Source of the DNA: Ehrlichia muris AS145
GTDB lineage: Bacteria > Pseudomonadota > Alphaproteobacteria > Rickettsiales > Anaplasmataceae
DNA: 64,000 nucleotides
Direction of reading: 5' to 3'
Assembly: GCF_000508225.1 (NCBI RefSeq)
Contig: NC_023063.1
Location: 806,001-870,000 of the forward strand
Part shown: piece by piece, positions 30,301 to 55,580 of the stretch
Layout of the letters: each line of letters begins with the position of its first letter
Position numbering within the stretch: position 1 is the first letter of the stretch
Translations under genes and position numbers: made by a program
The notes under the pieces: model-generated
What the model saw: the letters and a program-made list of their open reading frames with translations, nothing else
Databases searched by the model: none
What the model was told of the DNA's origin: nothing

Positions 30301-30560
30301 TAATTTATACATTTAAAATACAAAAATTCACCATCAGTGAATTTTCCTAACAACCTTTTAATTCAAGAATACAATACACCTTGAGTTAGGTGATATCACA
30401 CTTTTCAAGGCATTCCCACAAATATTGAATTATCTAGATAAAAATACTTCTAAAAAGATACTCAATTTAAATCAATAGATGTATGAACTTTATGATATAT
30501 CTACTTATAGATTATGATGTATTTATCAATTCTACGAGCCATTTATCACAACTCATTATA
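30301..30560. other. Intergenic sequence before the purQ-tail array
   Basis: About 260 bp after radC carry no recognisable gene or RNA. The right end grades into decayed copies of the repeat that follows. Confidence 0.55.
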
Positions 30561-31260
30561 GTATACAACATAGAGAACAATAACTTAAAATAATGCAAAC
30601 CACAGACACAATACAACTTAATAACATTAGAGCTTATAAGATTCTCCCTACATTACTTTACAATTTGTAAAAATATCTCACAGCATTAGAAAAAATTTCT
30701 CACATTCCTAGTAACGCATATATTAATTTCACTAAGCTTATATTATACAGTACCCAAACACAGAGAAAATACCTTCAAACAATACAAATTGTAAACCTAA
30801 CAAAACTCAACAACATTAAAATTTACAAATTTTTTTTCACATTACTTTACAATTCGTAAAAATATCTCACAGCATTAGAAAAAATTTCTCACATTCCTAG
30901 TAACGCATATATTAATTTCACTAAGCTTATATTATACAGTACCCAAACACAGAGAAAATACCTTCAAACAATACAAATTGTAAACCTAACAAAACTCAAC
31001 AACATTAAAATTTACAAATTTTTTTTCACATTACTTTACAATTCGTAAAAATATCTCACAGCATTAGAAAAAATTTCTCACATTCCTAGTAACGCATATA
31101 TTAATTTCACTAAGCTTATATTATACAGTACCCAAACACAGAGAAAATACCTTCAAACAATACAAATTGTAAACCTAACAAAACTCAACAACATTAAAAT
31201 TTACAAATTTTTTTTCACATTACTTTACAATTCGTAAAAATATCTCACAGCATTGCAAAA
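30560..31260. repeat. Tandem repeat, 189-bp unit, overlapping the 3' end of purQ
   Basis: The segment CAATTCGTAAAAATATCTCA (or one base different) begins at 30661, 30850, 31039 and 31228, exactly 189 bp apart. The last occurrence is the end of purQ itself, coding for NAVRYFYEL and the stop. Each unit therefore repeats the last nine purQ codons and its terminator side. The units look identical except for the T/C at the start of the first. A decayed fourth copy seems to begin at about 30560. Confidence 0.95.
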
Positions 31261-32022
31261 AATTTTCATGCCATCTCCATAAGTAGGATAAGCAATATTA
31301 GATCTTAAACATTGTTCTTTCACCTGTGTCCAATTATCCTGCTGTGTAAAAAATATCACTCTTTCTGGATGTGGCATCATAGCCAGTACTCTCCCACTAT
31401 TATCAGAAAGTGCAGCAATATCAGCAGCTGAACCATTGGGATTATAAGGAAATTCTTGATTTGCATAATTACCCGTATTTGTAACATACCTTAATGCGAT
31501 ATTCTTCTCAATAGAGGAAATTACAGAATCACTTTCCACAAAAAACCTCCCCTCTCCATGTGCAACTGGAATATATAGTTCACTCAGACCTTCCAACCAG
31601 GGTGAATTGCTTGACGGATTTACTTTTACTTTTACCCATCTACACTGATATTGTTGAATAGAATTGCTTAAAAGTGTAATACATGAGAAATCCGATACCA
31701 ATCTCATCAGTATTTGACACCCATTACATATACCCATTACTAACTTATCACTAGTTAGAAATTCTGATATTTCCTCTCTCAAATTATTAAAAATTCTCAA
31801 TGCAAATGCATTTCCAGCACCAGTATCATCACCATAGGAAAAACCTCCAGGAATTACAAGTACATTATAATCTCTTAATAATTTAGGATGTGATATTATT
31901 TCATTAATATGCACTATTTTTCCTTGTACATTACACGACAATAACTCCCCAGCCTTAACAAAAGCAAACAGGGTTTCTTCCTCACAATTTAACCCATATC
32001 CAGATAATACAATTACTTTCAT
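31225..32022 (-). CDS. purQ: Phosphoribosylformylglycinamidine synthase, glutaminase subunit
   Basis: This 265-aa class I glutamine amidotransferase supplies ammonia to PurL for FGAM formation. The nucleophile Cys is in MGICNGCQIL (about 96), the His/Glu in MMPHPERV (about 217), and SYGDDTGAGNAFA and VAHGEGRF are typical. The gene's last codons lie inside a 189-bp tandem array, so its 3' end is one unit of the repeat. PurL is 9 kb away on the other strand. Length is slightly above the about 225 aa of short bacterial PurQ. Confidence 0.96.
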   Translation of the reverse strand: MKVIVLSGYGLNCEEETLFAFVKAGELLSCNVQGKIVHINEIISHPKLLRDYNVLVIPGGFSYGDDTGAGNAFALRIFNNLREEISEFLTSDKLVMGICNGCQILMRLVSDFSCITLLSNSIQQYQCRWVKVKVNPSSNSPWLEGLSELYIPVAHGEGRFFVESDSVISSIEKNIALRYVTNTGNYANQEFPYNPNGSAADIAALSDNSGRVLAMMPHPERVIFFTQQDNWTQVKEQCLRSNIAYPTYGDGMKIFCNAVRYFYEL

Positions 32023-32541
32023 CTCTTTATAAAAATATACAAACCACTAACTTAACATAAAAAGTAAATACTTAAACTTCATTTATTATAAATGATATCA
32101 ACAATCCTATAAACATCAGATATGATAATAATATTCATCAATCACATTGATATAAAATTTATTTAAATTGATCTACCATTATATAATCAACCCATATTAA
32201 TCTACTAAAATAATATATAACAAACTTATACAAACAAATATATCTTATACTGCTTTAGATTAATCAATACATCTGAGCACAAGTTAACACACCAAAAACA
32301 CAATGCTTCAAACATATATTACATCACACTATTACATTAACAAAAGAACTTATTTACTCAGTATACATTAAGTATAAGACAGGAAAAATATAAGCCAATA
32401 ATACTACATTATGTAGTGCAAAAGACACCTAACACTATCTTTCATTACTTTATTTATAACTAATAGTGTAACTTTATTGACAATTTTAACAAAATTACTA
32501 CTATTAACCTTAGTTATTCAACATATTATTACACTGCTTGT
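32023..32541. other. Divergent region between purQ and mnmG
   Basis: This 519-bp AT-rich region holds the mnmG promoter candidate at its right end. No gene, RNA or repeat was recognised in the rest. Confidence 0.6.
32477..32504 (+). promoter_or_regulatory. Candidate sigma-70 promoter of mnmG
   Basis: A perfect TTGACA (32477-32482) is followed after 16 bp by TACTAT (32499-32504), ending 37 bp before the ATG. Confidence 0.55.
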
Positions 32542-34419
32542 ATGAATCATTATGATGTAGTAGTTATAGGAGGAGGTCATGCAGGATGTGAAGCAGCTGC
32601 AGCTGCAGCTCGCATTGGTGCAAAGACTTTGTTAATTACACATTCCATATCAACAATTGGAGAAATGTCATGTAACCCAGCTATTGGAGGAATCGCAAAA
32701 GGCACTGTAGTTAGAGAAGTCGATGCCTTGGATGGTTTGATGGGAACAGTAATAGATAAGTCCAGCATTAATTCCAGTATATTAAATAGAAGCAAAGGAC
32801 CAGCAGTATGGGGACCAAGAGCACAAGCAGACAGAAAAATATACAAAGACACAATGCAGGATATCATACTAAACTATCCAAATTTAACAGTGTTAGAAGC
32901 ATCAGTGGAAGATTTTTTAGTAACAGAAAAAAATGGACAATCGAGTGTTGAAGCTGTCATTACATCTGATCAACAAGCTATATATACAAAAAAACTAATA
33001 TTAACTACTGGTACATTTTTACAAGGAACTATCCACATAGGAAGTTATGCTACTCCAGCAGGTAGATTTGGAGAACAACCTTCTATTGGCTTAGCAAAAA
33101 CATTGGAAAAATACCATTTTAAATTAGGTCGTTTACGCACTGGCACACCACCAAGACTTGATATAAATAGTATAAATTTTTCAGGATTACTAGAGCAAAA
33201 AGGGGATATTAATCCTTCACCTTTTTCTTATATGTCGCAATCAATAGATCTACCACAAATTTCATGCTATTTAACTGCAACTAATACTAAAACCCATGAA
33301 GTAATAAAAAATAACTTACATAAAGCAGCAGCAAGTAATTTATTAAAAGACATAAAAGCTCCTAGATACTGTCCTTCAATAGAAGAAAAAGTAAGAAGAT
33401 TTTCAGAACGCAATAGCCATCAAGTATTCTTAGAACCCGAAGGCTTAAATTCTGAGATTATTTATCCCAACGGGATCACTACTTCATCTCCACTTGATGT
33501 ACAATATGAAATGCTAAAGACCATACCAGGATTAGAACAAGTCAAGATAATCAGAAGTGGTTATAGTGTTGAGTATAATTTCATTGATCCGAGAGAATTA
33601 TACCATACTCTTGAGACAAAAAAAATAAGTGGGTTATACTTTGCAGGACAAATAAATGGTACTACTGGATATGAGGAAGCAGCTGGACAAGGAATCATAG
33701 CTGGGATTAATGCAGCATTATCTCTCAACTCAAAGTATGAGCCTTTTATCTTAAAAAGAAGTGATGCATATATTGGTGTGATGATAGACGATTTAGTTAC
33801 ATTAGGAACATCTGAACCATATAGACTTTTCACATCCAGAGCAGAATATAGATTAAGGTTACGCTCTGACAATGCGGATTTACGTTTAACAGAATTGGGT
33901 TACAAAATATCAGTAGTATCATCTAAAAGACACTCTGTTTTAAAGAATAAAAAACAGGAAATAGAGGCCTTAACAAATATTTTAAAAAATATTGTAACAA
34001 CTCCTACACAGCTTGCTAGACATAATATATCAATATCTCAAGATGGAGTAAGGAGGAGCATTTTCGATCTTCTAAGTCATCCAAACATAAATATAGAAGT
34101 TATATCAAAAATGTGCAATGTAATAAAAGAATTTAATAAGGATATTGCAGAACAAGTAGAAATAGAAGCAAAATACTCGCCTTATTTCAGAAGACAAGAT
34201 GCAGATATAAAAGCCTTTATAGAAGAAGAAAACACACATATTCCAAGCAATATAGATTTTTCACAGATTTATGGATTATCGAAAGAAATTCAAGAAAAAT
34301 TAGAATATGTAAAACCACCTTCTATTGGCTCTGCAAGACGTATACCTGGAGTAACTCCAGCAGCAATCACTAATATTCTTATTTATTTACGCTGTTATAA
34401 AAGTAAAAAGATTTCATGA
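32542..34419 (+). CDS. mnmG: tRNA uridine-5-carboxymethylaminomethyl modification enzyme MnmG
   Basis: This 625-aa FAD protein works with MnmE to modify the wobble uridine of several tRNAs. The FAD-binding [10 protein letters not shown] is near residue 10. Family motifs [23 protein letters not shown], the [16 protein letters not shown] block and the C-terminal [13 protein letters not shown] are all present. Length matches the family. It is preceded by a good promoter and followed by a spacer with a glpX remnant. Confidence 0.98.
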
Positions 34420-34673
34420 GTAATTTACTTAAACATTAAATAAAACTACAAATAACAACACGTCAAGTCCGTGTAATGTTTCCATTGTTAACTATCATTA
34501 ATATAATTAAACACTATTTATGTATCATAATATAAAAGACCACCCAAAAAGTACTTTACATACTACAAACAAGCAGACATTCATGATTCAATGGACATTT
34601 TATTTTTACTAAAAAAGATATGATACATCAGGTAACAGACATTTTGATGTATAATTAAAAAACAATCTCATTT
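34420..34673. other. Intergenic sequence after mnmG
   Basis: About 250 bp of AT-rich sequence, with no gene or RNA recognised, lead into a decayed duplicate of the glpX 3' end. Confidence 0.55.
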
Positions 34674-34855
34674 CCCAGGATAGGTACCATTAATATATAT
34701 AATACTATCTAGTACAATGATTATAGACTCCATAACAAAAGATCCATGTGAATACCTAATACCCTGAACCAAAGCACTATCAGTAATACCAGTAGCTACA
34801 AAAATTGCTCAGACCTTATCATTTCTTCTATAGAATAAATTTTATTTATATCTGG
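34674..34855 (-). pseudogene. Decayed duplicate of the glpX 3' end
   Basis: The segment aligns over about 180 bp with the last about 60 codons of glpX, offset by 276 bp. It shares for example ACTCCATAACAAAAGATCC and TACCAGTAGCTACAAAAATT. It has lost one base (GCTCAGACC where glpX has GCTTCAGAC), which shifts the frame, and carries about 15 substitutions. It has no start and is surely not translated. It represents a tandem duplication of a gene end at an intermediate stage of decay. Confidence 0.92.
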
Positions 34856-34943
34856 ATAAAATAATTACACATGTTCTTTCCATAGAAAAAACTTTATAAA
34901 GTTACACAAAGTCCTATGTTACTTATTAAAAATAATCTACTTC

Positions 34944-35867
34944 TTATACTCCAGGTACAGTATTATTAACATACATAATACTAGCTGATTTAATGACTAT
35001 AGACTCCATAACAAAAGATCCATGTGAATACCTAATACCTTGAACCAAAGCACTATCAGTAATACCAGTAGCTACAAAAATTGCTTCAGACTTTATCATT
35101 TCCTCTATAGAATAAATTTTATTTATATCTTTAATTCCAAATTTTTCTGCTCTTGCCTTCAAATGCTCTGTATCAAAAATCAATTTACCTTCCATGTATC
35201 CACCCATTGATGATAAAGCAGCAGCTGCAAGTACACCTTCTGGAGCTCCTCCAATTCCAACATACAAATCATGAACACCTTTCATCAGTGATACTACAGC
35301 TGAAACATCTCCATCATCTATAAGTTTTATACGAGCTCCACACTCTCTAATGCTCTTAATTAATTCCAAATGCCTTTCTCTATATAAAACAGTTACAACT
35401 AATTCATTTACTTTACACTTTTTCACTTCAGCCAAATTATACAAATTTGTTTTTATATCATATTTTAGAGATACTACATCTCTAGGTACATTAGGACCTA
35501 CAGCAATCTTTTCCATGTAAACATCAGGAGCATTTAAAAACCCACCTTTCTTTGCTATTGCAAGAACAGACATAGCCCCATTTTTATAATGAGCACACAT
35601 AGTAGTCCCTTCAAGTGGATCAAGAGCAATATCAACATCAATTCCACCACAACCTACTTTTTCTCCAATATATAGCATAGGAGCATTATCCCTCTCTCCT
35701 TCTCCAATAACAACAGTCCCATTAATTTCCAATAAATTCAATGACTTTCGCATAGCATCAACAGCAACACGATCTGCTTCTTTTTCATTACCTATACCAA
35801 GATATTTATAAGACGCTAAAGCTGCAGCTTCAGTAACTGACAATAACTTAAATCCTAAATCTTGCAT
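34944..35867 (-). CDS. glpX: Fructose-1,6-bisphosphatase class II
   Basis: This 307-aa gluconeogenic enzyme hydrolyses fructose 1,6-bisphosphate. It has VIGEGERDNAPML, the metal-site DIALDPLEGTTMCA, and GIGGAPEGVLAAAAL. Ehrlichia lack hexose uptake and early glycolysis, so gluconeogenesis from amino-acid-derived carbon is essential and this enzyme fits. The last about 60 codons are duplicated in decayed form just downstream. Confidence 0.96.
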   Translation of the reverse strand: MQDLGFKLLSVTEAAALASYKYLGIGNEKEADRVAVDAMRKSLNLLEINGTVVIGEGERDNAPMLYIGEKVGCGGIDVDIALDPLEGTTMCAHYKNGAMSVLAIAKKGGFLNAPDVYMEKIAVGPNVPRDVVSLKYDIKTNLYNLAEVKKCKVNELVVTVLYRERHLELIKSIRECGARIKLIDDGDVSAVVSLMKGVHDLYVGIGGAPEGVLAAAALSSMGGYMEGKLIFDTEHLKARAEKFGIKDINKIYSIEEMIKSEAIFVATGITDSALVQGIRYSHGSFVMESIVIKSASIMYVNNTVPGV

Positions 35868-36184
35868 TATTAAAATCCATATAGCTATAATAAAGATACA
35901 TCATAATACTATAAACATACTTATAGCAAACTATCATACTATTTTTATACCACAATTAATATCAATATATAACCAAATAAACTGCTAACAGATCAATAAG
36001 TAAGCAAGTATTAAAAAAATTAATTTAACAAAAAACACTTTAAAAATATACAAAAGTTTTCACATGATTACTTTCAAGAGCTAATTACCAATTAAAATGA
36101 ATTTTGCATTGCCAAATTCATATAACAGAATAATATATACTAGATTTAACAGTATTAAGAACACTCAATATACCATAGGTACAT
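35868..36184. other. Divergent region between glpX and the LytM-like gene
   Basis: This 317-bp AT-rich region has no convincing frame (a 69-codon one from 36097 overlaps the next gene in another frame). Promoters for both genes must lie here. Confidence 0.5.
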
Positions 36185-36796
36185 GTGACAATAAGAAAAA
36201 CACTATTGATTGCCCTATTATGCTTTGGTTGTACACAAAAACCAGCTCCTTACTTCTTAAGAGGAGAAGAATTTCATGGCAGAAAAGAATTAGACGACAT
36301 CAATGAATATCAACTAATAAAGTATGATACTAAAAAAGATGAAAATATAGAATCACATCCAACTCAAGACGCCCATGAAGTAAATAAAAAAATAAAAGCT
36401 ATTGATAAAGGCTGCAATTTTACTATGCCTATAGAAGGTATAATAACATCAAAATTTTCCATAAATAATCAAGATAAGAATTGTCAAGAGGGAATTAATA
36501 TAAAATCTAATGGAATTCAACAAGTTAGAGCATCATCTGCTGGAAAAATACTATACGTAGGTAAAGGATCAAAGTGGTATGGCAATATGATAATAATAGA
36601 GCATAATAAAAATACAACAACTACATATTCTTATCTAGATAGCATAGATGTAAAAATAGGTGATAAAGTAACACAAGGTCAAGTTATAGGACATATCAAA
36701 AGTACTAACTCTCAAAAAAACAAATCATATCTATGTTTTGCTATGCGCAAACGTGGAAAAGCAGTAAACCCACTATTATATATCAACTGTAAATAA
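36185..36796 (+). CDS. LytM/M23-like lipoprotein with lost zinc ligands (NlpD/EnvC type)
   Basis: This 203-aa protein starts at GTG. Its signal peptide ends in LLCFGC, an atypical lipobox with Cys16 as the probable lipid site. Residues about 80-200 form a LytM domain (MPIEGIITSKF, VRASSAGKILYVG, GNMIIIEH, VKIGDKVTQGQVIGH, AVNPLLYI). The zinc motifs are gone: H-x3-D is QEGIN (101-105), YAHL is YSYL (148-151) and HxH is YLC (182-184). Such inactive LytM proteins activate amidases in other bacteria. Ehrlichia was thought to have little or no peptidoglycan, so its role is interesting. Confidence 0.82.
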   Translation: MTIRKTLLIALLCFGCTQKPAPYFLRGEEFHGRKELDDINEYQLIKYDTKKDENIESHPTQDAHEVNKKIKAIDKGCNFTMPIEGIITSKFSINNQDKNCQEGINIKSNGIQQVRASSAGKILYVGKGSKWYGNMIIIEHNKNTTTTYSYLDSIDVKIGDKVTQGQVIGHIKSTNSQKNKSYLCFAMRKRGKAVNPLLYINCK

Positions 36797-37147
36797 GTTA
36801 AGAAAAGCTCACAGTAGTCAATAATTTTTTTACTAAAACATGTTATCATAAGTCAAATAGTAGTATATTGTAGCCACATAAAGTATCCACCAACCATTAC
36901 TCAACAATTGGGAAATCAATTTAGAAACACATCATGTATATTAAAATAATTGACTAAATAATTTTTCACTATCAATTAATATTAAAACGTTAAGATATTA
37001 CTTCTTTTAAAGCATTATACAAAAATACACTATTACATGTAGAGCTAATATACACAAATTGCAATTAAATAAAAATTAGAACAAGTAAGAAAAAATAAAG
37101 ATGTTTGCTATAAATTTTTCATGTTCATCATAAGATTAAGGTTATAG
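36797..37147. other. Intergenic spacer, nothing recognised
   Basis: This 351-bp AT-rich spacer lies between two plus-strand genes. TTGACT at 36950 lacks a good -10. No gene or RNA seen. Confidence 0.55.
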
Positions 37148-37603
37148 ATGTCAGAATATATACCAGAAAAAAGAGCAATAAAAATATTATTTGCATATTG
37201 GAATCAGCTACGCAACAACAGGGCATTTCCTCAGATAGAAGAAATTGAATCAGAAGAAATCAGAGACATTTGGCATAACTGTTTTATTATTGAAGTAAGA
37301 AATGATACAGACAATCAAAAGTACAACTGCATTTATATTGGAGAAAGAGCTATGGAGCTGTATCAGTCAAATATTAAAGTCTATGCTGAATCACAAAATA
37401 TTAAGCTTTTTTTTCCACAAGTTATAGAAAATTTATTTGATTATTTAGAATCAATCATAGAAAATCAAGAACCGATCATAGATGAATCAGAAACTGAAAG
37501 TGCTGATGGAAATTACATAAAAATAAGACAATGTCTACTACCTATTGGTAAAAATAATGAAGTAACACACATAATAGGAGTAATAGGAGGGAAAATATAC
37601 TAA
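37148..37603 (+). CDS. PAS_5 (DUF1457-like) domain protein
   Basis: This 151-aa single-domain protein resembles the alphaproteobacterial PAS_5 family. It shows the N-terminal AYWNQLRNNRAFPQIEEIE (W-x-x-L-R-x-x-R-x-x-P pattern), a central YNCIYIGERAMELY strand, and a C-terminal CLLPIGKNNEVTHIIGVIGG strand pair. Such proteins are cytosolic; their ligand and partner are unknown. There is no output domain, so it would have to act through another protein. Confidence 0.7.
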   Translation: MSEYIPEKRAIKILFAYWNQLRNNRAFPQIEEIESEEIRDIWHNCFIIEVRNDTDNQKYNCIYIGERAMELYQSNIKVYAESQNIKLFFPQVIENLFDYLESIIENQEPIIDESETESADGNYIKIRQCLLPIGKNNEVTHIIGVIGGKIY

Positions 37604-37666
37604 AATGATCGTTATATAAAAACTCATAATCAATACCGTAAATTATCAAAATATTTAAAAAATTAG

Positions 37667-37695
37667 TTGACTGTTTTACTAAAATTGAATAGCAT
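37667..37695 (+). promoter_or_regulatory. Candidate promoter for the small protein and bioB
   Basis: TTGACT (37667-37672) and TAGCAT (37690-37695) are separated by 17 bp, about 60 bp upstream of the ATG at 37756. Confidence 0.4.
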
Positions 37696-37755
37696 ACCCT
37701 AACCTAATGAGAACAAAGTGTTTATAGATTTCTTCAGTTATAGGCAGGTTGCTTT

Positions 37756-37977: not shown

Positions 37978-38954
37978 GTACATGCACTTCAGTAAGAAAC
38001 AATTGGCAATTAGATGAAATATTAGAGCTCTTTAATACTCCATTTAATGATTTGATATTACAGTCTAATTTAACACATAGGCAATTTTTTAACAATAACG
38101 AAGTACAAGTTGCTGCTCTACTAAGTATCAAAACCGGTGGTTGCCCAGAAAATTGCAGATATTGCTCGCAAAGTGCACATTATAAGACAGGTTTACAAAA
38201 AGAATCTTTACTTGATATTGAATCAATAAAAAAAGCTATACAAACAGCTAAAAATAATGGAGCAGATAGGTTTTGCTTTGCAGCAGCATGGCGCCAATTA
38301 AGAGACAGAGATATAGAATACATTTGCAATATTATCGAGCTAATAAAAAGTGAAAAACTAGAGAGTTGTGCTTCTCTAGGTATGGTAACTTTAGACCAAG
38401 CAAAAAAGTTAAAAGATGCAGGTTTAGATTTTTATAATCATAACATTGATACATCACGTGATTTTTATCCTAATGTAACTACTACACGTAATTACGATGA
38501 TAGGTTAACTAGCTTAAATAATATACATGAAGCAGGAATCAACATATGCTCTGGTGGTATTTTAGGTCTTGGTGAAAATGTTGAAGATAGAGCAAAAATG
38601 TTATTAACTTTAGCAAATTTAAAGGAACATCCACGTTCTGTCCCTATTAATAGATTAGTTCCAATAAAAGGAACACCTCTTGAAAGTAACCCCAAAATAG
38701 ACAACATAGATTTTATAAGAGTTATAGCTGTAGCACGCATTTTAATGCCGAAATCATATATACGTCTTGCTGCAGGACGAGGAGACATGTCAGAAGAAAT
38801 GCAAGTATTATGTTTATTTGCAGGAGCAAATTCTATATTTTGTGGAGAGAAATTATTAACAACCCCTAACTCTGATTGTAATAATGACAAAAATCTTTTA
38901 TCCAAGCTTGGAGTAAGAACAAAAGCACCTGTACTTTTCAATTCACAAAATTAA
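37974..38954 (+). CDS. bioB: Biotin synthase
   Basis: This 326-aa radical-SAM enzyme inserts sulfur into dethiobiotin. The [4Fe-4S] motif is CPENCRYC (Cys57, Cys61, Cys64), followed by SQSAHY. The [19 protein letters not shown] block and LAAGRGDM with the Arg ligand of the second cluster are present. E. ruminantium-like bacteria keep biotin synthesis. The start overlaps the upstream small gene. The last five codons (FNSQN) and about 30 bp beyond are duplicated 148 bp downstream. Confidence 0.97.
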
Positions 38955-39117
38955 TCATTTACTTAATATAACTAAATATGTTGGGCTACAGAAAAACTAA
39001 CACTTTATGTAAAATGGCTGATAACTCGCCAACCAAACTGCAACAACAATACAAACTATTACCAAAACTTCAAATCTGCATCCTTTCAATTCACAAAATT
39101 AATCATTTACTTAATCT
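38936..39117. repeat. Two-copy duplication of the bioB 3' end
   Basis: TTTCAATTCACAAAATTAAT plus CATTTACTTAAT occurs at about 38937 (covering the bioB stop) and again at about 39084, about 148 bp apart. The second copy supplies the TTTACT that serves as a plausible -35 for rnpB. Confidence 0.85.
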
Positions 39118-39133
39118 AATTAGAAATTATAAT
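39106..39133 (+). promoter_or_regulatory. Candidate rnpB promoter
   Basis: TTTACT (39106-39111) and a perfect TATAAT (39128-39133) are separated by 16 bp. They sit immediately upstream of the RNA's expected 5' end (about 39138-39140). Confidence 0.6.
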
Positions 39134-39740: not shown

Positions 39741-40529
39741 TCATAAATAGCACAAATTCGATAATGTGATTACAATACAAAACTTACCATAATCCCAATA
39801 CAAATAATATAAGACCTACCTTATAAAAATGCTAATCCAAAATCTAGCTCTTTATTAGTATAAGAAGTTGAGAAATAGGAAACAATTTCCACATATGTAT
39901 TAATAGTTCCATACTACAAAAAGTACTAAGATTATGCAGACACTTGTCCTGCAACTATACATGTTACACCACGATACTGATAGATGATTTAAATATTATA
40001 ATTCCTTTACTTTATAAAAATGCTAATCCAAAATCTAGCTCTTTATTAGTATAAGAAGTTGAGAAATAGGAAACAATTTCCACATATGTATTAATAGTTC
40101 CATACTACAAAAAGTACTAAGATTATGCAGACACTTGTCCTGCAACTATACATGTTACACCACGATACTGATAGATATTTAAATATTATAATTCCTTTAC
40201 TTTGACCCTTAAACATAGAATTAAATCTAATAATAAAATCACTTATTACTTATTGCCTATAATCATATTACAATAGCTGCTAGAAAGCTTATTATAACAT
40301 ATTTACAACTATTTCTCATTTTATAACACCATTACTTTAATGATACTGATTATTAATGAAAACATTAATAGCCCTTTACTTAACCTCCAAACACAAGAAT
40401 AAATCTCACAATAGTATCATCTTATTACTTACTGTAATTATGAATAATCACCAGAAACATTAATAATATATTTGAAATTACCCCTAATTATTATACAGTG
40501 TAAATATATTACTTAACCAGAAATTAGTC
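39474..40529. other. Long spacer between rnpB and purL, made mostly of repeats
   Basis: This 1.06-kb region has no supported gene. It holds a faint duplication of the rnpB 3' end (to about 39740), a strong two-copy 191-bp repeat (39821-40204) and decayed partial copies to about 40450. The purL promoter must be near its right end. Confidence 0.7.
39821..40204. repeat. Tandem repeat, 191-bp unit, 2 full copies
   Basis: TTATAAAAATGCTAATCCAA starts at 39821 and 40012. The two copies are nearly identical through GATACTGATAGAT, where one copy has an extra GAT. A third, diverged partial copy (CCTTTACTTTGACCC, then TTATTACTTATTG) continues to 40260, with another trace near 40375-40440. Confidence 0.92.
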
Positions 40530-43568: not shown

Positions 43569-44339
43569 TATATTACACAGTTAAAATAGCTCTATAAAAA
43601 AACATAACAATGTAAGCATCTTATAAAATAACCATATATCAAATTTAACTTTACTATTTATATATAAACTGTAAGTATACAAAACAAAATAAAGAGTGAA
43701 CAATCAACAAAGAAAAAAATCCCCTTTATGTAAATATAACAAATCAACGTTAGCCAGTAATAAAGTCATGTTATATATGATAGAATACAATAAAAACGAC
43801 ATCTATTCGTGCTCAGCCTTATTCATATTTACATACAGTACTTCGATATACTAATCAATACATAAAAAACCAATAGAACCAATCATGTTACCATAGTAAC
43901 CCATAGTTCTGAGTCTAATAACACTTCGATACACTAATTAACACATCAAAAAACTATCTATAGCGCAACACACAAATCACATAATAGAACCAATCATGTT
44001 ATCATAAATAACCCATAGTTCTGAGTCTAATAACACTTCGATACATTATTAATACATAAAAAAACTATCTATAGCGCAACACACAAATAACATAATAGAA
44101 CCAATTATGTTACCATAGTAACCCATAGTTCTGAATCTAATAACACTTCGATACATTATTAATACATAAAAAAACTATCTATAGCGCAACACATGCTAAA
44201 CAGCACAGGTCAAATAATAATAAAAACCCCCTTAAGAATATCATCATGATATCCTACAAGTTCACATAATACACAACACAAAAGAATTGAAATAATCTTC
44301 AAAACAAAATATACTGCCTCCTTTAAGCTAACAAAGAAA
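43569..44339. other. Spacer between purL and folK with a tandem array
   Basis: A 771-bp spacer; the 111-bp repeat array (43840-44195) fills nearly half. The rest is AT-rich with no supported gene; a 73-codon minus-strand frame overlapping the folK start has no support. Confidence 0.65.
43840..44195. repeat. Tandem repeat, 111-bp unit, about 3 copies
   Basis: GAACCAAT-ATGTTA begins at 43876, 43987 and 44098, exactly 111 bp apart. Each unit contains CCCATAGTTCTGA, TAACACTTCGATACA and ACTATCTATAGCGCAACACA. A partial copy precedes the first (about 43840). Confidence 0.92.
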
Positions 44340-45175: not shown

Positions 45176-45502
45176 TTTCATATAACATTAAGTATACTAC
45201 CATAACTTAAATTAACACCTACAGCAAGCATAGCACATTATAAAGTAAATAAATTAATAAAAAATTTATTAGATTTAGATAATTAAAAAATACTCTATTA
45301 CTTACCTTCAATTACACCCTATCATAACCATATAAACACTTTATAAATATAGAATAACCATCAATACCATACTAATGAATGTGATATTCACTTTTTAACA
45401 AAATCTAGATTTATTTGACTATGCATACCACTTATAAATTCATTAACTGCAGCACTTCTGCTCCTATATAATAATAAGTAAAAATAATATATAAAATTAT
45501 AA
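44856..45502. other. Spacer after folK with decayed repeats
   Basis: A 647-bp convergent spacer. Decayed copies of a unit related to the folK end lie at 44885-45175. The remainder is AT-rich with no gene or RNA recognised. Confidence 0.6.
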
Positions 45503-45758
45503 TGCTTATTTATTTTTTATCACAAAATGCTATACACTGTTTATAGGTGATTATTTTTCCGCCACAGCTAGAAAAACATAAATCATAATCACTTCGACAT
45601 AACCTATCACACTTATCATTCTGACATAAAATGCTTATTTATTTTTTATCACAAAATGCTATACACTGTTTATAGGTGATTATTTTTCCGCCACAGCTAG
45701 AAAAACATAAATCATAATCACTTCGACATAACCTATCACACTTATCATTCTGACATAA
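45503..45758. repeat. Perfect 128-bp tandem duplication of a gene's 3' end
   Basis: Positions 45503-45630 and 45631-45758 are identical by eye. The second copy contains the last 40 codons of the Cys-rich lipoprotein gene (stop at 45639); the first lies just beyond its stop. The lack of mismatches shows the duplication is recent. Confidence 0.95.
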
Positions 45759-46253
45759 ACTGACAGGATGTTGTGTTTCTATTATAGGGCTTTTATTTAT
45801 TCCATACATATTTGAAACAAAGTTATCATATCCATTATAACGATCAAAACTTTGCTCAGTATTACACATGTCCATATAGATATCACATTGAGTCTTACAT
45901 GCAATATTATTGGAGCAAGATTCTTTGCATTTTAAGTTTTTACTCTCACATGAGTTATTATCACTCTGCTTCGGTTTACTATTTCCACTTTCATTATTAT
46001 TTACTATATTAATGCGTGGTTGAGAACGTTCTTGAGCACTTATCATTTTTTCAGTTAATTTACAATTAGTAACATTAACTTGACATTGTCTATAGCAATC
46101 ATTTCTCACATAAGCACATTTTACTACACAAGCCTTCCCAGATTCACTTTCTGGACTTTTATATTCTATTTTAGTACCATAAATAGGACTGCAAGAGGCT
46201 TGTAGTATCAATAAAAATAATATTGCACCTGGTATTTTCATAGATGAAACCAT
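45639..46253 (-). CDS. Cysteine-rich lipoprotein with repeated CX3C motifs
   Basis: I do not recognise this 204-aa protein. A signal peptide ends at lipobox LQASC (Cys21), indicating a lipoprotein. The mature part has three Cys blocks: C-x3-C-x6-C-x3-C-x6-C (CVVKCAYVRNDCYRQC...), C-x3-C-x5-C-x3-C-x6-C (CKESCSNNIACKTQC...) and C-x3-C-x6-C-x3-C then C-x3-C (CDRLCRSDYDLCFSSC... and CIAFC). Ser/Asn-rich linkers separate the blocks. The twin CX3C pattern suggests disulfide-stapled helical hairpins. An ATG at 46241 (MKIPGAIL) is an equally good start. The last 40 codons lie in a perfect 128-bp duplication. Confidence 0.85.
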   Translation of the reverse strand: MVSSMKIPGAILFLLILQASCSPIYGTKIEYKSPESESGKACVVKCAYVRNDCYRQCQVNVTNCKLTEKMISAQERSQPRINIVNNNESGNSKPKQSDNNSCESKNLKCKESCSNNIACKTQCDIYMDMCNTEQSFDRYNGYDNFVSNMYGINKSPIIETQHPVSLCQNDKCDRLCRSDYDLCFSSCGGKIITYKQCIAFCDKK

Positions 46254-47820: not shown

Positions 47821-48180
47821 ATGAGTCTCAGTCCTGACAAACTATTTAGTTCTCCAGAAGAACTGAAAAACCTTATAATATTCATTCTTGATAAACATAA
47901 AGCTAGCAATATTGTTACAATTAATATCAGCAGTAAAAGTAACTTAGCAGAATATTTAATAATTGCTTCAGGCGAATCAAGTTATCATGTAAAATCTTTA
48001 GCTGAAAGAATTAGGAAAGAAATCAAACCATATAAAAAGCTCTCTATTGAAGGGCTAAAAGATGGTAACTGGGTAGTATTAAGCTGCTACAATATATTAG
48101 TACATATTTTCAGACCAGAAGTAAGAGAATATTATCAACTCGAAAACCTATGGAATTCTCAGTTAGATGAAGAAAATTAA
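47821..48180 (+). CDS. rsfS: Ribosomal silencing factor RsfS (Iojap)
   Basis: This 119-aa protein binds ribosomal protein uL14 and blocks subunit joining in starvation. It has the family pattern NLAEYLIIASGESSYHVKSLAERI and GLKDGNWVVLSCYNILVHIFRPEVREYYQLENLW. Start ATG follows a GAGGT ribosome site. Length is typical. Confidence 0.95.
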   Translation: MSLSPDKLFSSPEELKNLIIFILDKHKASNIVTINISSKSNLAEYLIIASGESSYHVKSLAERIRKEIKPYKKLSIEGLKDGNWVVLSCYNILVHIFRPEVREYYQLENLWNSQLDEEN

Positions 48181-48840
48181 AAAATTTTTTTAAGCAATAT
48201 ACACAATATTCTTATTACAATTAAATGTGACATAAGTTTCATGGGACTAATACACAAAGTTTATTACATCTTTTAGCTTATACTAGATCGATTTACCTAA
48301 AGGAGTTAGCCACAGTCTAATTCCTCACTCAGTCTATATAAAAAATCCTAAAATTTATTATACAGAATACAACATAGAAATTCATTATACATCTTGGCAT
48401 TTCAAAGTGATTTACTATAAACAATTAACTATATCCTGCTCTTATCAACTTACAAAAAACCTATTAGATAAATCCAACACATAGACTCATTACATTCCTT
48501 AGCATTACAATTGACTTGATACAAATAACTAACTACAGTTAAACTTTCAATCCAATATTGTTCTTACATAAATATTTAAAAATTATTACATAATTAAAAA
48601 CATATAACTAGTTTAATACAAACTAGAACATAATTAGTATATTCTCAAAAATTTGGAATATTCATGTACACAAAATATTTATTGTGTAAAAAAGACACTG
48701 AAATTCGTTTGCAACTAAAATATCCTATGAAGAATTCATTAACTACAAATCATGAATAAAAACAATAAAGAAAAATTTTTATATAAATAGTACAGCAAAC
48801 AGATTTTAATTCAGTGTTTAATTGATAAAACGAGAAAAAC
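48181..48840. other. Spacer with three decayed repeats
   Basis: This 660-bp spacer has no supported gene. Loosely similar segments begin at about 48250, 48371 and 48478 (ACA-A-A-TTCATTACAT-CTTAGCAT pattern), suggesting an old minisatellite of about 115 bp. Confidence 0.5.
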
Positions 48841-49725
48841 ATGAATCACTTTGTGGTTGCAAGAAGATCTGACGATTCTGTAATATCAGTACAACAAAAT
48901 AACACTTTGCAAAATTTAACAATTTCTAATCTGAATAAAGCAGCAGAAACACTTTTAGATTACACAGCAGAAGAACTTTCTAATAAGCCATTATCAACTA
49001 TATTACATAAAAACATTGTAGATAACATAGATAGCTATTTAGAATACACAAGTGATGGAACTGATTTATTTGACATTTTATCCAAAACACGTAACTGTTC
49101 TTTTATTGGAAGAAATAATAAAATAATCCCAGTAATACAAAAAGTCTTTCGAACTACAGCTGCCAATCAAAATATAATAAATTATGAGATTTTAGTACGA
49201 GATGCTAGTATATCACAAAAGCTTGATATATTTAGGCAATCCATAATTTCTAATAAAAAATATAGCATGCATTCAGTTTTTAATATAATGGATGAAGTAT
49301 CTACAAAAACAGAAATAAAGATCGTATTAGACTTCCTTCATAAACACAATAAACACGCTATCATAAGTATGATGCAACTAGATCCACCATATAATAAGTC
49401 TAATATAGACACTTTAACACAACACACTATCAACTTGTTACATAAAAACGTTAGAGAAAGTGATATAATTGGGTACATAGGAGATTACAAGATCATTTTT
49501 ATCTTATTAGGATGTAAATCTGAACATGCATATTCAGCAATATCCAGAATACACAAAAACATTAATAATAATCTTCAAAATTTCCATGCAAAGGCTTCAA
49601 TAGGTTATGCTCAAATGCATAACGAAATTGACACAGAACAAATTTTAACAAACATAAGTAACATATTATTCATTGCTCAACAAGAAGCAGCTGGAGGTAC
49701 AATCAAAAGTACTAACATTCCATAA
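48841..49725 (+). CDS. PAS domain plus degenerate GGDEF-like domain protein
   Basis: This 294-aa soluble protein has an N-terminal PAS-like domain (about residues 15-125; TISNLNKAAETLLDYTAEEL is the classic N-A-A-E-x-L-x-G-Y pattern). A C-terminal region (about 140-290) follows the secondary structure of diguanylate cyclases. The segment ESDIIGYIGDYKIIFILLG (about 206-224) aligns with the RxSDxxxRxGGDEFxxLLP core, but the GGDEF signature reads IGDYK. It is therefore unlikely to make c-di-GMP; it may bind a ligand or dimerise with a true cyclase (PleD in Ehrlichia). It has no membrane segment or receiver domain. Confidence 0.75.
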   Translation: MNHFVVARRSDDSVISVQQNNTLQNLTISNLNKAAETLLDYTAEELSNKPLSTILHKNIVDNIDSYLEYTSDGTDLFDILSKTRNCSFIGRNNKIIPVIQKVFRTTAANQNIINYEILVRDASISQKLDIFRQSIISNKKYSMHSVFNIMDEVSTKTEIKIVLDFLHKHNKHAIISMMQLDPPYNKSNIDTLTQHTINLLHKNVRESDIIGYIGDYKIIFILLGCKSEHAYSAISRIHKNINNNLQNFHAKASIGYAQMHNEIDTEQILTNISNILFIAQQEAAGGTIKSTNIP

Positions 49726-49937
49726 AAAAACCTACTAAATTTTCATTTAATACTCTTCCTCAGTAATTTTTTATATTTTAGTAGTACCTGATTAATTATC
49801 AAACACACATTGCTCTTTAACAATAAGAGATAACTTTCAGAATATTGTTTATATTTAACAAATTACTACAACCTATGCAGTACATATACATAGCACTGCA
49901 TATAAATAAATTAACTTATAATAGTAAATTCTTCATA

Positions 49938-50570
49938 CTAAACACATATAGAAAACTTAAAAATAGTGTTTTGTATTTCATATGTCATTTTTGCATTATA
50001 ACTATCTAAAAGCATCATTAGAAAATTTACTTGAATATTCTTTGTATTCAATTCTTGATTAGATATGTCCATATCAAGAATACTCTTAATACTTTCGTGC
50101 ATTTCTATTTTTTGTGCAGAAGCTATTGTTTCTATAAATAAACCATTACTATCTGACTTAGACAGTACAATTTTTACCTTAGTCCCATTTATCATGAAGA
50201 ACATTAATATCATAGTTATATTAGCAAGTAATTTATTGATTTTTTCAACCAACTCAATATCAAAAATCTGTATATCGACATCCCATTCAAGAATAATTTT
50301 TTTTCTCTTCAGATAATTTTTTATATTATGCTTAGTAGCATTAAAATCCCCATTATCATCAGAAATACTATAAGCTTGCTTCAATAGTTTAAACTTATTC
50401 ATTACATCATCAGCTGCATCAGAAAGTAAAGGTATCATACCTTCAGCTAAGCTTTCATCATCACCTAAACACTCTATATAATTTACTATTACTCCTACAG
50501 ATCCAGCTAGATCATGCAACAACCTTGCAGACACTAACTCTACGTTTGATAAAATCTTACTATTCTGCAT
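49938..50570 (-). CDS. chpT: Histidine phosphotransferase ChpT-like
   Basis: This 210-aa protein matches the pseudo-histidine-kinase phosphotransferases that relay phosphate from CckA to CtrA in alphaproteobacteria. The N-terminal DHp helix carries SARLLHDLAGSVGVIVNYIE, with His19 the phosphorylated residue. The C-terminal domain looks like a degenerate kinase ATPase domain without nucleotide motifs. Ehrlichia have CckA and CtrA, which control the developmental cycle, so this would be the middle of that relay. It is transcribed divergently from purM. Confidence 0.82.
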   Translation of the reverse strand: MQNSKILSNVELVSARLLHDLAGSVGVIVNYIECLGDDESLAEGMIPLLSDAADDVMNKFKLLKQAYSISDDNGDFNATKHNIKNYLKRKKIILEWDVDIQIFDIELVEKINKLLANITMILMFFMINGTKVKIVLSKSDSNGLFIETIASAQKIEMHESIKSILDMDISNQELNTKNIQVNFLMMLLDSYNAKMTYEIQNTIFKFSICV

Positions 50571-50727
50571 AAAAATCCTATATTCAATATTATGTTCTTT
50601 AACTTTAATCTATCAAAAAAAAATAATTCCACTAACTAGTAAACAACTTTTTATATGAAGTTCAAATATTTAATGCTATTCTGATTAATTAATTGTAAAA
50701 ATGAGTTTCACATAAATTAAGGTGTCT

Positions 50728-51762
50728 ATGAAAACATACTCAAGCGCTGGAGTTGATATTGAATCCGGTAATAGTCTAGTAGAAAAAATCAAACCAATCG
50801 CATCATCAACATCTAGACCAGAAGTAGTTGGCAATATAGGGTCCTTTGGAGCACTGTTCGATATGTCAAAAATAAAGGAATATAGCAAACCTGTTCTAGT
50901 ATCCTCAACTGATGGCGTTGGTACCAAATTATGTATTGCACAAGAAGTAAATAATCATAAGACTATTGGTATAGATCTTGTAGCAATGTGCGTCAATGAT
51001 GTTTTAGCACAGGGAGCTGAACCATTGTTTTTCTTAGATTATTTCGCAACGGGTAAAATAGATCATGATACTACTTTAGAAATTATCAATAGCATAGCAG
51101 TAGGATGTAAAAAAGCAAATGTCGCATTAATAGGTGGAGAAACTGCTGAAATGCCTGGAATGTATAGCGATAATAAATATGACATAGCTGGTTTTACAGT
51201 AGGTATTATTGAAGCAGATAATATTTTACCAAAAAATCATAGCATAAAAACCGGAGATATAATACTTGGATTAGCTTCAACTGGATTACACTCTAATGGT
51301 TTCTCATTAATAAGGAAAATCATCAGTGACAATAAAATCAGCTACCATGATGTATGTCCTTGGTCTGATCAAACATGGGCAAACTATTTACTCACACCTA
51401 CACGTATCTATGTAAATTCCTTACTACCGATAATTTCACTAGTGAATGGCTTAGCTCACATTACTGGAGGAGGATTCATATATAATATACCACGTATTAT
51501 TCCTAATCATCTATCAGCTACCATTGACTTAAATTCTTGGAAGATGCCACAAATATTTCATTGGCTAGATACCGAAGTACAAATACCACAAATGGAAATG
51601 TTCAAAACATTTAACTGCGGCATTGGTATGATATTAATTGTACCACAAGAAAATGAAGAGCAAACATTATCTCTCCTCAAAGTTACAGATGAAGTTGTAT
51701 ACAAAATTGGTAAAATTACAGAAAGGAATACTGAAGACCAAGTAGTATTCAACCAAATATAG
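50728..51762 (+). CDS. purM: Phosphoribosylformylglycinamidine cyclo-ligase
   Basis: This AIR synthetase converts FGAM to AIR in purine synthesis. It shows YSSAGVDIESGNSLVEKIKP, VSSTDGVGTKL, the GGETAEMPGMY motif and THITGGGF-type HITGGGFIYNIPR. The ATG at 50728 is chosen over the GTG at 50722 because AAGG lies five bases upstream, giving 344 aa. The last about 20 codons are part of a 285-bp tandem array that runs on for 0.8 kb past the stop. Confidence 0.97.
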   Translation: MKTYSSAGVDIESGNSLVEKIKPIASSTSRPEVVGNIGSFGALFDMSKIKEYSKPVLVSSTDGVGTKLCIAQEVNNHKTIGIDLVAMCVNDVLAQGAEPLFFLDYFATGKIDHDTTLEIINSIAVGCKKANVALIGGETAEMPGMYSDNKYDIAGFTVGIIEADNILPKNHSIKTGDIILGLASTGLHSNGFSLIRKIISDNKISYHDVCPWSDQTWANYLLTPTRIYVNSLLPIISLVNGLAHITGGGFIYNIPRIIPNHLSATIDLNSWKMPQIFHWLDTEVQIPQMEMFKTFNCGIGMILIVPQENEEQTLSLLKVTDEVVYKIGKITERNTEDQVVFNQI

Positions 51763-52560
51763 CTGAACCAGTCTTAAAAATAACCGAATAAACACTAAAG
51801 TGAGTTATACATATTGTTTAATTTTTTCAACCCATAAACATGTAATTGTACACAACTACAGATAATGAAAATGGTATAGGCACCTTACAAATATATTTGA
51901 ACAAGCTCTTAAAAATGACCAAATAAACATCAGAGTGCAATTATATATATTTTTTACCTTCCAACTTATAAAAATGCAATCATATATAAAATTGGTAAAA
52001 TTACAGAAAGGAATACTGAAGACCAAGTAGTATTCAACCAAATATAGCTGAACCAGTCTTAAAAATAACCGAATAAACACTAAAGTGAATTATACATATT
52101 GTTTAATTTTTTCAACCCATAAACATGTAATTGTACTCAATTACAAATAATGAAAATGGTATAGGCACCCTACAAATATATTTGAACAAGCTCTTAAAAA
52201 TGACCAAATAAACATCAGAGTGCAATTATATATATTTTTTACCTTCCAACTTATAAAAATGCAATCATATATAAAATTGGTAAAATTACAGAAAGGAATA
52301 CTGAAGACCAAGTAGTATTCAACCAAATATAGCTGAACCAGTCTTAAAAATAACCGAATAAACACTAAAGTGAATTATACATATTGTTTAATTTTTTCAA
52401 CCCATAAACATGTAATTGTACTCAATTACAGATAATGAAAATGGTATAGGCACCCTACAAATATATTTGAACAAGCTCTTAAAAATGACCAAATAAACAT
52501 CAGAGTGCAATTATATATATTTTTTACCTTCCAACTTACAGAAATGCAATCATATATAAA
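51700..52560. repeat. Tandem repeat, 285-bp unit, 3 copies, beginning inside purM
   Basis: AAAATTGGTAAAATTACAGA starts at 51703 (inside purM), 51988 and 52273, exactly 285 bp apart; a fourth unit breaks off at about 52560. Each unit carries the last purM codons (KIGKITERNTEDQVVFNQI and stop) plus 220 bp of downstream sequence. Copies differ at only a few bases. 285 is a multiple of 3, but every copy keeps the stop. Confidence 0.95.
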
Positions 52561-52822
52561 ATACAGAAAATAAAAACACAGTATCCCAACAAATATATTT
52601 AAGCAAGCCCTTAAATCACAAAATAAATATCAGTAATGGGAACCCTATACACTATTTAATCTTTTAACTCAAATAACAGCTCTATATTGAACAACAGTAA
52701 ACATATATAAGTTCAAACAATAAATGTATTTTATTACTATTATTACGTAGATAAAGTTTTATCTAAATAATCAGATTTTATAAAAATTATTCATTCTCAC
52801 TTTTCAGGCATGTATTAAGTAA
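51763..52822. other. Spacer between purM and xerC, mostly purM-tail repeats
   Basis: This 1.06-kb convergent spacer is filled by the 285-bp array to about 52560, then a decayed partial unit (CTTAAATCACAAAATAAATATCAG near 52611 resembles the unit's middle). Two identical minus-strand frames within it are products of the repeat, not genes. Confidence 0.75.
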
Positions 52823-53755
52823 CTATTCTTTCTTTATAACTTGAGGGTGAAAATTCTTATAGTGGTCAATTATACTTTTATGATCTAAATGAGTATAAAT
52901 TTGTGTAGTCGATAAATTAACATGACCTAATAATTCCTGTATTGATCTAATATCCGCACCACCTAGAAATAAATGTGTAGCAAAACTATGACGCAATGCA
53001 TGAGGCGTTGTAGTATCAGGTAAATCTATTTCTTTACGAATTTTTTGTATTCTATTTGCGAAATAAGTCCTATTAAGCTTTTTACCATTAACTCCTACAA
53101 AAACGTATTCATTCACAACCGCACTTAATTTTACATGATATGGACAACATTTTATATATCCATCTAAACTCTCACGCACTATAGGTAAAATAGGTAAGAT
53201 TCTTTCCTTATTCCCCTTACCAATAATTAAAAGTTCATCTCCTCTAATATCTTGAAACCTTAAATTTACTGCTTCACTAATCCTTAAACCACACCCATAA
53301 AGGAGCATAATTAGTGCAAAATCACGTTTAACTATCCAATCATTGTGTAATAAACTATAGTAATCAAGTATCCTTTGAATGTGAGATTGAGCTAACGTTC
53401 TAGGTAAAGTGCTTTTAAGCCTTGGTCTAGACAAACAAAAAATTGCTTGATTATCCACATTATAAGTACGTGACAAATACTGAAAAAAATTTTTCAACGC
53501 TGACAAAGATCTTGCATTTGTCACAGCTTCTATATTAGCCTGATATCTAAATGCAAACCATTTTCTTAAATCTGTAACTTTTATATTAATAATATCCTCT
53601 AAAGTAACAGAACGTAAAGTACACCTATATAAAAATTCGACAAATTTATTAACATCTCTAAGATAAGAATCAACTGTATTAATCGCATATCTTCTCTCTT
53701 GCTTTATCCAAGATATCCATTCATTGATAATAACACACAAATCTTGACTTTTCAT
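52823..53755 (-). CDS. xerC: Tyrosine recombinase XerC
   Basis: This 310-aa site-specific recombinase resolves chromosome dimers at dif with XerD. The catalytic set is complete: Arg in YGCGLRISEAV, Lys in GKGNKER, HALRH (His and Arg), LLGHVNLSTTQIYTH with the His and the nucleophile Tyr. The N-terminal SAM-like core-binding domain spans about 1-110. The closing HYKNFHPQ resembles the FHPRA end of XerC rather than XerD, but the distinction is not firm. There is no neighbouring phage gene or att site. Confidence 0.88.
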   Translation of the reverse strand: MKSQDLCVIINEWISWIKQERRYAINTVDSYLRDVNKFVEFLYRCTLRSVTLEDIINIKVTDLRKWFAFRYQANIEAVTNARSLSALKNFFQYLSRTYNVDNQAIFCLSRPRLKSTLPRTLAQSHIQRILDYYSLLHNDWIVKRDFALIMLLYGCGLRISEAVNLRFQDIRGDELLIIGKGNKERILPILPIVRESLDGYIKCCPYHVKLSAVVNEYVFVGVNGKKLNRTYFANRIQKIRKEIDLPDTTTPHALRHSFATHLFLGGADIRSIQELLGHVNLSTTQIYTHLDHKSIIDHYKNFHPQVIKKE

Positions 53756-53977
53756 ACGCTAAGAAACATAAAAACTTTAATTTACCGCATTATGCAGTTT
53801 ACAAAAATATCAAAATGCAGAACATTGAGATAGAAATCTCCCAATAACAAATTATCCCTATCAACATTTTAAACATTTATTACTAATATTATAATTAATA
53901 CTAATTCAATTCTTAACACTACATAATATATAATATATAATCTCCTCCAGCTAAGTCCTTTATTAAGTAGATAAAAG

Positions 53978-54958
53978 ATGAAAACCACTATTTTAGGTGC
54001 AGGATCATTTGGCACAGCAATAGCAATTGCATTATCCACAAATAACATATCAGTTAACCTATGGGGGCGAAATCACATAGACATGCAATCCATAGCAACT
54101 CATCGCGCAAATCTTAAATATTTACCAACACGCAAATTACAAGAGAACATCATCATAAGTAGTAACATAGATGAAGTATTATCAGATCATAACATTTGCA
54201 TTATTCTCGCAGTACCCACGCAACAATTGCGTACGCTATGTTATTCCATACAAAAGAAACAACATATATTTGAAAAAACACCTTTATTAATCTGTAGCAA
54301 AGGGATTGAAGACATATCTCTTAAATTCCCAAGTGAAATAGTAAAGGAAATTTTACCAAACAACCCAATTTTCATACTATCTGGGCCAAGCTTTGCAAAA
54401 GAAATAGCAGAAGATCTACCATGCACTATAGTGCTTGCAGGAGAAAATGAAGATTTAGGTATATCAATCACAAAAAAGATAAACAGTAAGACTTTTAAAA
54501 CAGTGTATAGCCAAGATGTATTAGGAGTACAAATTGGAGCTGCATTAAAAAACATAATCGCAATTGCCTGTGGAATAATAACAGGGAAAAACCTAGGAAG
54601 CAACGCTATAGCTACTGTTATAACTAAAGGAATGAACGAAATAAAGAATCTATACACTGCAAAAAACAAGACTATCGATCTTTCAACTTTAATTGGTCCA
54701 TCCTGCCTTGGAGATTTAATATTAACTTGTACCACAGCACATTCACGAAACATGTCTTTCGGAATAGAAATAGGGCAAGGTGCAGACATAAGCAAAATGC
54801 TTAGCAATAAATTAAAAATCATAGAAGGCGTTAGTACAGTAAAACCACTAATATTGCTAGCAAAAGAACTTAATATAGAATTACCTATTTGCACGTCTAT
54901 ATACAATTTACTTTATAAAAATACACCACTAGACAAAATAATATCAGACATATTATAA
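53978..54958 (+). CDS. gpsA: Glycerol-3-phosphate dehydrogenase [NAD(P)+]
   Basis: This 326-aa enzyme makes sn-glycerol-3-phosphate for phospholipids from dihydroxyacetone phosphate, in keeping with gluconeogenic (glpX) carbon flow. It has the Rossmann motif [10 protein letters not shown] near residue 6, [12 protein letters not shown], the catalytic Lys in [14 protein letters not shown], and GDLILTCT with the RN motif in SRNMSFG. The last about 18 codons form the first unit of a 150-bp tandem array. Confidence 0.96.
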
Positions 54959-55580
54959 GATATATAATGCAGATCCTTAAACTTAGTGCGACAATATCAT
55001 ACTCTACAATACACACTCTGTACTCAGGATATACTACAATAATATTGCATACTTATAACAATTTACCTTATAAATATACATTAGACAAAATAATATCAGA
55101 CATACTATAAGATATATAATGCAGACCCTTAACTTAGTACAAAAATACCCTGCTAGAATACACACTCTGTACTCAGGATATACTACAATAATATTGCATA
55201 CTTATAACAATTTACCTTATAAATATACATTAGACAAAATAATATCAGACATACTATAAGATATATAATGCAGACCCTTAACTTAGTACAAAAATACCCT
55301 GCTAGAATACACACTCTGTACTCAGGATATACTACCAATAATATTGCATACTTATCACAATTTACCTTATAAATATACATTAGACAAAATAATATCAGAC
55401 ATACTATAAGATATATAATGCAGATCCTTAAACTCAGTGCGACAATACCATACTACAATACACACTCTGTACTCAGGATATACTACAATAATATTGCATA
55501 CTTATAACAATTTACCTTATAAATATACATTAGACAAAATAATATCAGACATACTATAAGATATATAATGCAGACCCTAA
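54900..55580. repeat. Tandem repeat, about 150-bp unit, 4-5 copies, beginning inside gpsA
   Basis: ACAATTTAC-TTATAAA occurs at 54903 (inside gpsA), 55058, 55207, 55357 and 55507, spaced 155, 149, 150 and 150 bp. Each unit contains AGACAAAATAATATCAGACA, the gpsA stop and TATATAATGCAGA-CCTTAA, then CACTCTGTACTCAGGATATA. The in-gene unit differs most, so the downstream copies spread from one another more recently. Confidence 0.95.

Follow-up and report, generated by a model that had tools for sequence, protein, structure and literature searches.

Tandem duplications of about 160 bp in sampled Ehrlichia genomes overlap gene ends far more often than gene starts

Collins et al. (2005, PNAS) and Frutos et al. 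(2006, J Bacteriol) are said to have described in Ehrlichia ruminantium tandem units of ~150 bp that are mostly noncoding and include truncated gene copies, and the abstract of the second reportedly calls the repeat process specific to that species. Here we analyse arrays of this kind in a stretch of 64,000 nucleotides from Ehrlichia muris AS145, a bacterium of mice and ticks (RefSeq assembly GCF_000508225.1, contig NC_023063.1, positions 806,001 to 870,000, forward strand; hereafter the window, with coordinates counted from its first letter) and in samples of six Ehrlichia genomes, with regard to how they lie over the starts and stops of genes. The arrays resemble those of E. ruminantium in having head-to-tail units of the ~150-bp class (median 160 bp, species medians 151–167 bp), in lying mostly outside coding sequence (107 of 161 touch no gene boundary, and 40 of 212 are inside genes) and in containing truncated gene fragments, since 42 of them overlap a gene 3′ end and stop only. 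They differ in being present also in E. muris, Ehrlichia sp. HF, E. chaffeensis and E. canis. The ~160-bp process reported from E. ruminantium is thus common to all six genomes sampled, which extends it to these four and to a sixth genome, G004; and where the E. ruminantium repeats were viewed as targeted at noncoding DNA, we recast the pattern as tolerance outside gene starts.

Tandem repeats are familiar in related Anaplasmataceae as minisatellite (variable number tandem repeat) loci used for typing in Wolbachia and Anaplasma, according to PMC3287509 and PMC4262125. PMC9937504 describes an inverted partial ntrX duplicate in E. ruminantium, ~2 kb from its parent gene and with gene conversion. 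It is likewise a partial gene copy near its parent, but as described there it is inverted and ~2 kb away, whereas the arrays of the window are direct tandem copies.

Between 32 and 41% of each genome was sampled, one genome per species: E. muris (464 kb), Ehrlichia sp. HF (475 kb), E. chaffeensis Arkansas (476 kb), E. canis Jake (470 kb), E. ruminantium Welgevonden (480 kb) and G004 (480 kb). Genes were called from a dicodon score and between-species homology, not taken from published annotation, and gene calls of <400 bp wholly within an array were ignored. Tandem Repeats Finder (TRF) yielded 212 arrays; 40 that lay inside genes and another 11 that lacked a flanking gene on one or both sides were dropped, which left 161. 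A self-BLAST set, which also catches decayed pairs, went from 290 clusters to 220 (47 inside genes and 23 without flanks removed). Rows are partly non-independent: loci L020 and L086 each hold two paralogous arrays, and two E. muris arrays are common with HF.

An earlier note on the window, made from its letters alone, had proposed a systematic bias of such copies to gene 3′ ends and suggested comparing stop and start overlaps with random placement. Run on the samples of the six genomes, this comparison bears the bias out: among the 161 TRF arrays, 42 are stop-only, 6 are start-only, 6 include both kinds of boundary and 107 include none (stop-only versus start-only, sign test 1e-7), so that starts and stops are clearly not overlapped equally. 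The stop-only arrays overlap 12–247 bp of gene 3′ ends. With homolog-supported genes only, the counts are 39 versus 6, and within co-directional spacers alone they are 16 versus 3. The self-BLAST set gives 64 stop, 6 start, 5 both and 145 neither (25 versus 3 in co-directional spacers). Stops are ahead in 6 of 6 genomes in both sets, though cases are few in E. canis, E. ruminantium and G004 (TRF stop:start for E. muris 14:3, HF 7:1, E. chaffeensis 13:1, E. canis 3:0, E. ruminantium 4:1, G004 1:0). A smaller earlier run, whose filters differed in part, counted 39:6 among 126 arrays, and the first count, in E. muris only, comprised 35 arrays. The stop bias is real and genus-wide. Frame-broken genes were considered as the main source of stops inside arrays and rejected: of the 42 stop-covered genes, 33 keep the C-terminus of their ortholog, 5 have a different one and 4 are without ortholog. 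An incomplete literature search at the level of titles and abstracts, weak evidence in itself, found no report of a stop/start bias in such arrays.

To obtain expectations, each array was collapsed to one unit and placed at a random position, with positions wholly within a gene or spanning an entire gene excluded. Uniform placement predicts 33 stop and 34 start overlaps, against 42 and 6 observed, and 39 convergent, 93 co-directional and 29 divergent locations, against 74, 78 and 9. When placement models are fitted by likelihood over eight categories in six genomes, a uniform one reaches a log-likelihood of −288.4 and stop attraction alone −288.2 (weight 1.1), whereas start avoidance alone reaches −257.2, with a tolerance of 0.14 for units that reach a start or the 300 bp preceding it. 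Adding stop attraction to start avoidance gives −256.9, with a stop weight of 0.9 (~0.6 to 1.2 within 2 log units); across the 161 arrays there is therefore no stop enrichment beyond start avoidance, the gain being 0.3 log units. The co-directional spacers show this directly: stops are not enriched there (16 observed, 18.9 expected under uniform placement), and starts are depleted (3 observed, 18.9 expected). Convergent stops (26 versus 15.7) and convergent interiors (48 versus 24.4) do exceed uniform expectation, an excess attributable to start avoidance alone, which predicts 30.4 and 44.5. The pile-up at 3′ ends comes mainly from the rarity of copies over starts, not from attraction to stops.

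These results bear on the mechanism put forward in the earlier note, in which duplication is directed to the 3′ ends of transcripts, for example by replication–transcription conflict; converging polymerases or terminator hairpins could act likewise. Such targeting would fit the surplus of stops over starts, the array-rich convergent spacers and a non-significant head-on trend, but we consider it improbable. A stop weight gains only 0.2 log units over uniform placement, falls below 1 when fitted on top of start avoidance, and costs 5 log units if set to 1.5. The fraction of the unit falling within the gene is uniformly distributed (Kolmogorov–Smirnov p 0.88, n = 42), and array coverage climbs away from stops without peaking, in a profile that uses real, uncollapsed distances so that its rise is partly made by the arrays themselves; with uniform overlaps and no coverage peak at stops, anchoring of breakpoints near the stop was not seen. 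Raw array density depends strongly on spacer type in most genomes (126-array set), yet the convergent excess is largely gone outside start-proximal DNA: beyond 250 bp upstream of starts there are 2.90 arrays per 10 kb in co-directional, 3.40 in convergent and 2.03 in divergent spacers (68, 70 and 6 arrays). Convergent transcription as a separate cause was set aside on the similarity of these densities. As for replication, the first half of each of the 6 genomes has a positive mean GC skew and the second half a negative one, placing the origin close to position 0 and the terminus about midway. On this basis stops are covered in 38 of 539 head-on genes (7.1%) and 31 of 634 co-directional ones (4.9%; p 0.14), a trend to head-on genes that falls short of significance, and head-on replication was not taken up as a significant driver.

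The reading we favour, with a probability of roughly 0.77, is that ~160-bp duplications are scattered and kept freely except at starts, the asymmetry being start avoidance and likely the work of selection. Tandem duplications of ~160 bp (middle half 135–196 bp) would be gained in scattered places, and the initial copy would probably be made by illegitimate slippage or template switching with little (0–9 bp) flanking homology. Once two copies are present, unequal exchange could add or remove further ones, and copies would then decay by mutation. They would be retained where least harmful: freely over 3′ ends and in spacers, inside genes as multiples of three, and about seven times less often over starts and the ~300 bp upstream. 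Arrays would in this way gather in convergent spacers and at stops without attraction to stops. What appeared to be a mechanism that copies gene tails becomes a measurable filter, with duplications arising widely and not being kept at starts, and the filter would help explain the long convergent spacers of the reduced Ehrlichia genomes.

Start avoidance is likely purifying selection against an extra promoter, a truncated frame or disturbed 5′ regulation. The reason offered in the earlier note, that a gene stays intact when its tail is copied, does not serve, because a copy over the start also leaves one intact gene, in the last copy, just as a copy over the stop leaves the first; gene integrity therefore cannot explain the asymmetry. 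The extra promoter and truncated reading frame that a start copy brings might be a better reason. Copy number agrees with selection, start-containing arrays seldom growing: about two copies are present in 8 of 12 start-containing and 10 of 42 stop-only TRF arrays (p 0.012), and single pairs make up 8 of 11 start-containing and 22 of 64 stop-only BLAST clusters (p 0.022). TRF arrays that have two copies and are at least 95–98% identical are balanced (4–5 start, 4–7 stop), while the rest stand at 1–2 to 35–38. This age contrast, by identity and copy number combined, reaches p 0.0004–0.005 at 7 of the 13 cut-offs examined; with copy number as the sole criterion p is 0.004 and 0.012.

Several observations weigh against this reading. 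In the TRF set, identity alone gives p 0.05–0.40, with p 0.50 at the ≥99% cut-off, and the BLAST identities carry no age trend (single pairs of at least 97% identity: 2 start, 5 stop); the age test is not robust, and we keep it as suggestive only. Arrays with both a stop and a start number 6, where the avoidance model predicts 2.7, and the fitted avoidance zone of 300 bp is the maximum of the grid. Arrays are present in both species in 39 of 1,688 orthologous spacer pairs, with 22.4 expected from spacer type and length (P 0.003; the pairs are non-independent), so that certain spacers gain or tolerate arrays more readily than the model allows for. The self-made part of the coverage rise belongs here too, as does the reading-frame result: the period is divisible by three in 40 of 40 arrays inside genes and 45 of 161 in spacers, a contrast that is partly one of construction, since a frame-breaking copy would end the very frame that defines "inside". 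Finally, the deficit at starts might be mutational in origin. Starts and promoters might be cold for duplication, for example shielded by bound polymerase or nucleoid proteins, and the asymmetry would then record where duplication occurs. The same spatial model fits this alternative, and the start share is without clear change with age by BLAST identities or TRF identity alone. We nevertheless hold it unlikely: start-covering duplications do exist (6 start-only and 6 with both, of 161), they are mostly two-copy, and by TRF identity and copy number combined they are concentrated among the youngest arrays.

Unit length is narrowly distributed. The period of spacer arrays (n = 161) has quartiles of 135–196 bp and is already narrow in young arrays (median 154 bp, n = 18). 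Arrays inside genes are unlike this, with a median unit of 117 bp, and periods below 86 bp occur in 10 of 40 of them as against 3 of 161 spacer arrays. Microhomology at birth is weak, averaging 2.1 bp where 0.88 is expected by chance (p 0.007–0.016), as measured at the junctions of 13 of the 18 young arrays; the other 5 were set aside, their copy-to-copy match being shorter than the period. It is conceivable, though on balance doubtful, that a genus-wide process with a ~160-bp step set by the copying machinery acts repeatedly at corresponding orthologous spacers, with promoters as a selective sieve that shapes the long convergent spacers. A fixed-length fork-repair or flap intermediate would be one possible source of such a step.

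The window holds eight TRF arrays with units of 111–285 bp (shorter-period rows left uncounted). They are listed here with the genes and decayed copies that concern them.

2372..2829: array, 131 bp × 3.5, wholly in a co-directional spacer (TRF)
7158..7561: array, 139 bp × 2.9, convergent spacer after folP2, 78 bp past the folP2 stop
30650..31265: tandem array, 189 bp × 3.3, 99% identity, convergent spacer radC/purQ (TRF)
31225..32022, − strand: purQ, best NCBIfam match PRK01175 (PurQ), E 1.8e-53, under the model cut-off
34666..34853, − strand: decayed copy of the glpX 3′ coding end, 87–89%, 276–277 bp downstream
34944..35867, − strand: glpX, TIGR00330
37974..38954, + strand: bioB, TIGR00433
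38936..39127: decayed 148-bp duplication across the bioB stop (38954)
39817..40203: array, 191 bp × 2.0, 98%, wholly in the rnpB–purL spacer (TRF)
43872..44193: array, 111 bp × 2.9, wholly in the purL–folK spacer (TRF)
45501..45759: array, 129 bp × 2.0, 100%, convergent spacer (TRF)
45639..46253, − strand: Cys-rich lipoprotein gene (so named in the earlier note), no NCBIfam match
50722..51762, + strand: purM, TIGR00878
51698..52562: array, 285 bp × 3.0, 98%, convergent spacer purM/xerC (TRF)
53978..54958, + strand: gpsA, PRK14620
54898..55578: array, 150 bp × 4.5, 93%, convergent spacer gpsA/ntrX (TRF)

The matches in these arrays, 93–100% across 259–865 bp, are far beyond chance. Four of the eight contain a stop codon and none a start. 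The stops of purQ (31225, − strand), purM, gpsA and the Cys-rich lipoprotein gene (45639, − strand) lie inside arrays 30650–31265, 51698–52562, 54898–55578 and 45501–45759, with 41, 65, 61 and 121 bp of overlap, respectively, as had been noticed from the letters; the lipoprotein reading frame has homologs in 5 of 5 other genome samples. All four stop-covering arrays sit in convergent spacers, which offer stops but no starts, so a 3′ bias cannot be demonstrated from the window by itself. The claim that copies never run over a start holds within the window and fails elsewhere, given the 6 start-only and 6 start-plus-stop arrays among the 161.

The bioB stop, also placed in a repeat by the earlier note, does lie in one, a decayed 148-bp duplication visible as a 44-bp pair (91% identical, 148 bp apart, at 38936–38979 and 39084–39127). 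In HF the bioB stop is under a different array of its own (L035:5680-6465, unit 301 bp). The rnpB gene (RNase P class A, Rfam RF00010; 39140–39474, + strand) lies between bioB and purL and begins 12 bp past the decayed bioB copy. For glpX, a decayed copy of the last ~187 bp (source 34942–35130) was found as proposed, but its edge is at the stop and does not run past it. Other suggested cases were not confirmed: folK has only a 29-nt, 86% pair beginning 35 bp past its stop, rnpB only weak pairs of 24–28 nt, and the array after folP2 is wholly in the spacer.

Comparison with HF indicates fast but incomplete turnover, because most window units lie outside arrays there while two further arrays of E. 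muris also occur in HF. A match in HF that is not part of an array exists for seven of the eight units, among them that of the purQ spacer, and for the lipoprotein unit this match is within coding sequence. The unit of 7158–7561 has no HF match at half coverage or more, and the HF spacer is 404 bp long as against 805 bp (401 bp shorter). The purM–xerC convergent spacer (window 51763–52822; L038, L053 and L049 in relatives) carries arrays in 4 of 6 genomes, and units from different genomes show no mutual match at half coverage or more.

Recurrence of arrays in some orthologous spacers, of which purM–xerC is the example, and the two arrays common to E. muris and HF would be compatible with function, with arrays acting as terminators, regulatory spacers or small-RNA sources and being positively selected at 3′ ends. 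We regard this as very improbable, seeing that the purM–xerC units of the array-bearing species lack a mutual match at half coverage or more, that copies decay, and that most window units are not part of an array in the closest relative. An assembly artefact is hardly credible. In three E. ruminantium drafts, according to PMC7343930, units are missing from some of the assembled tandem repeats; but in most of our arrays the copies differ by substitutions, and an error in copy number would not yield the stop/start asymmetry. The HF assembly, made from PacBio and Illumina reads according to PMC7789307, also has arrays, 23 found and 18 kept in 475 kb.

Upstream of the array at 7158–7561, two adjacent folP paralogs form a tandem pair (5222–6064 and 6217–7080, + strand), both matching TIGR01496 (dihydropteroate synthase) above cut-off.

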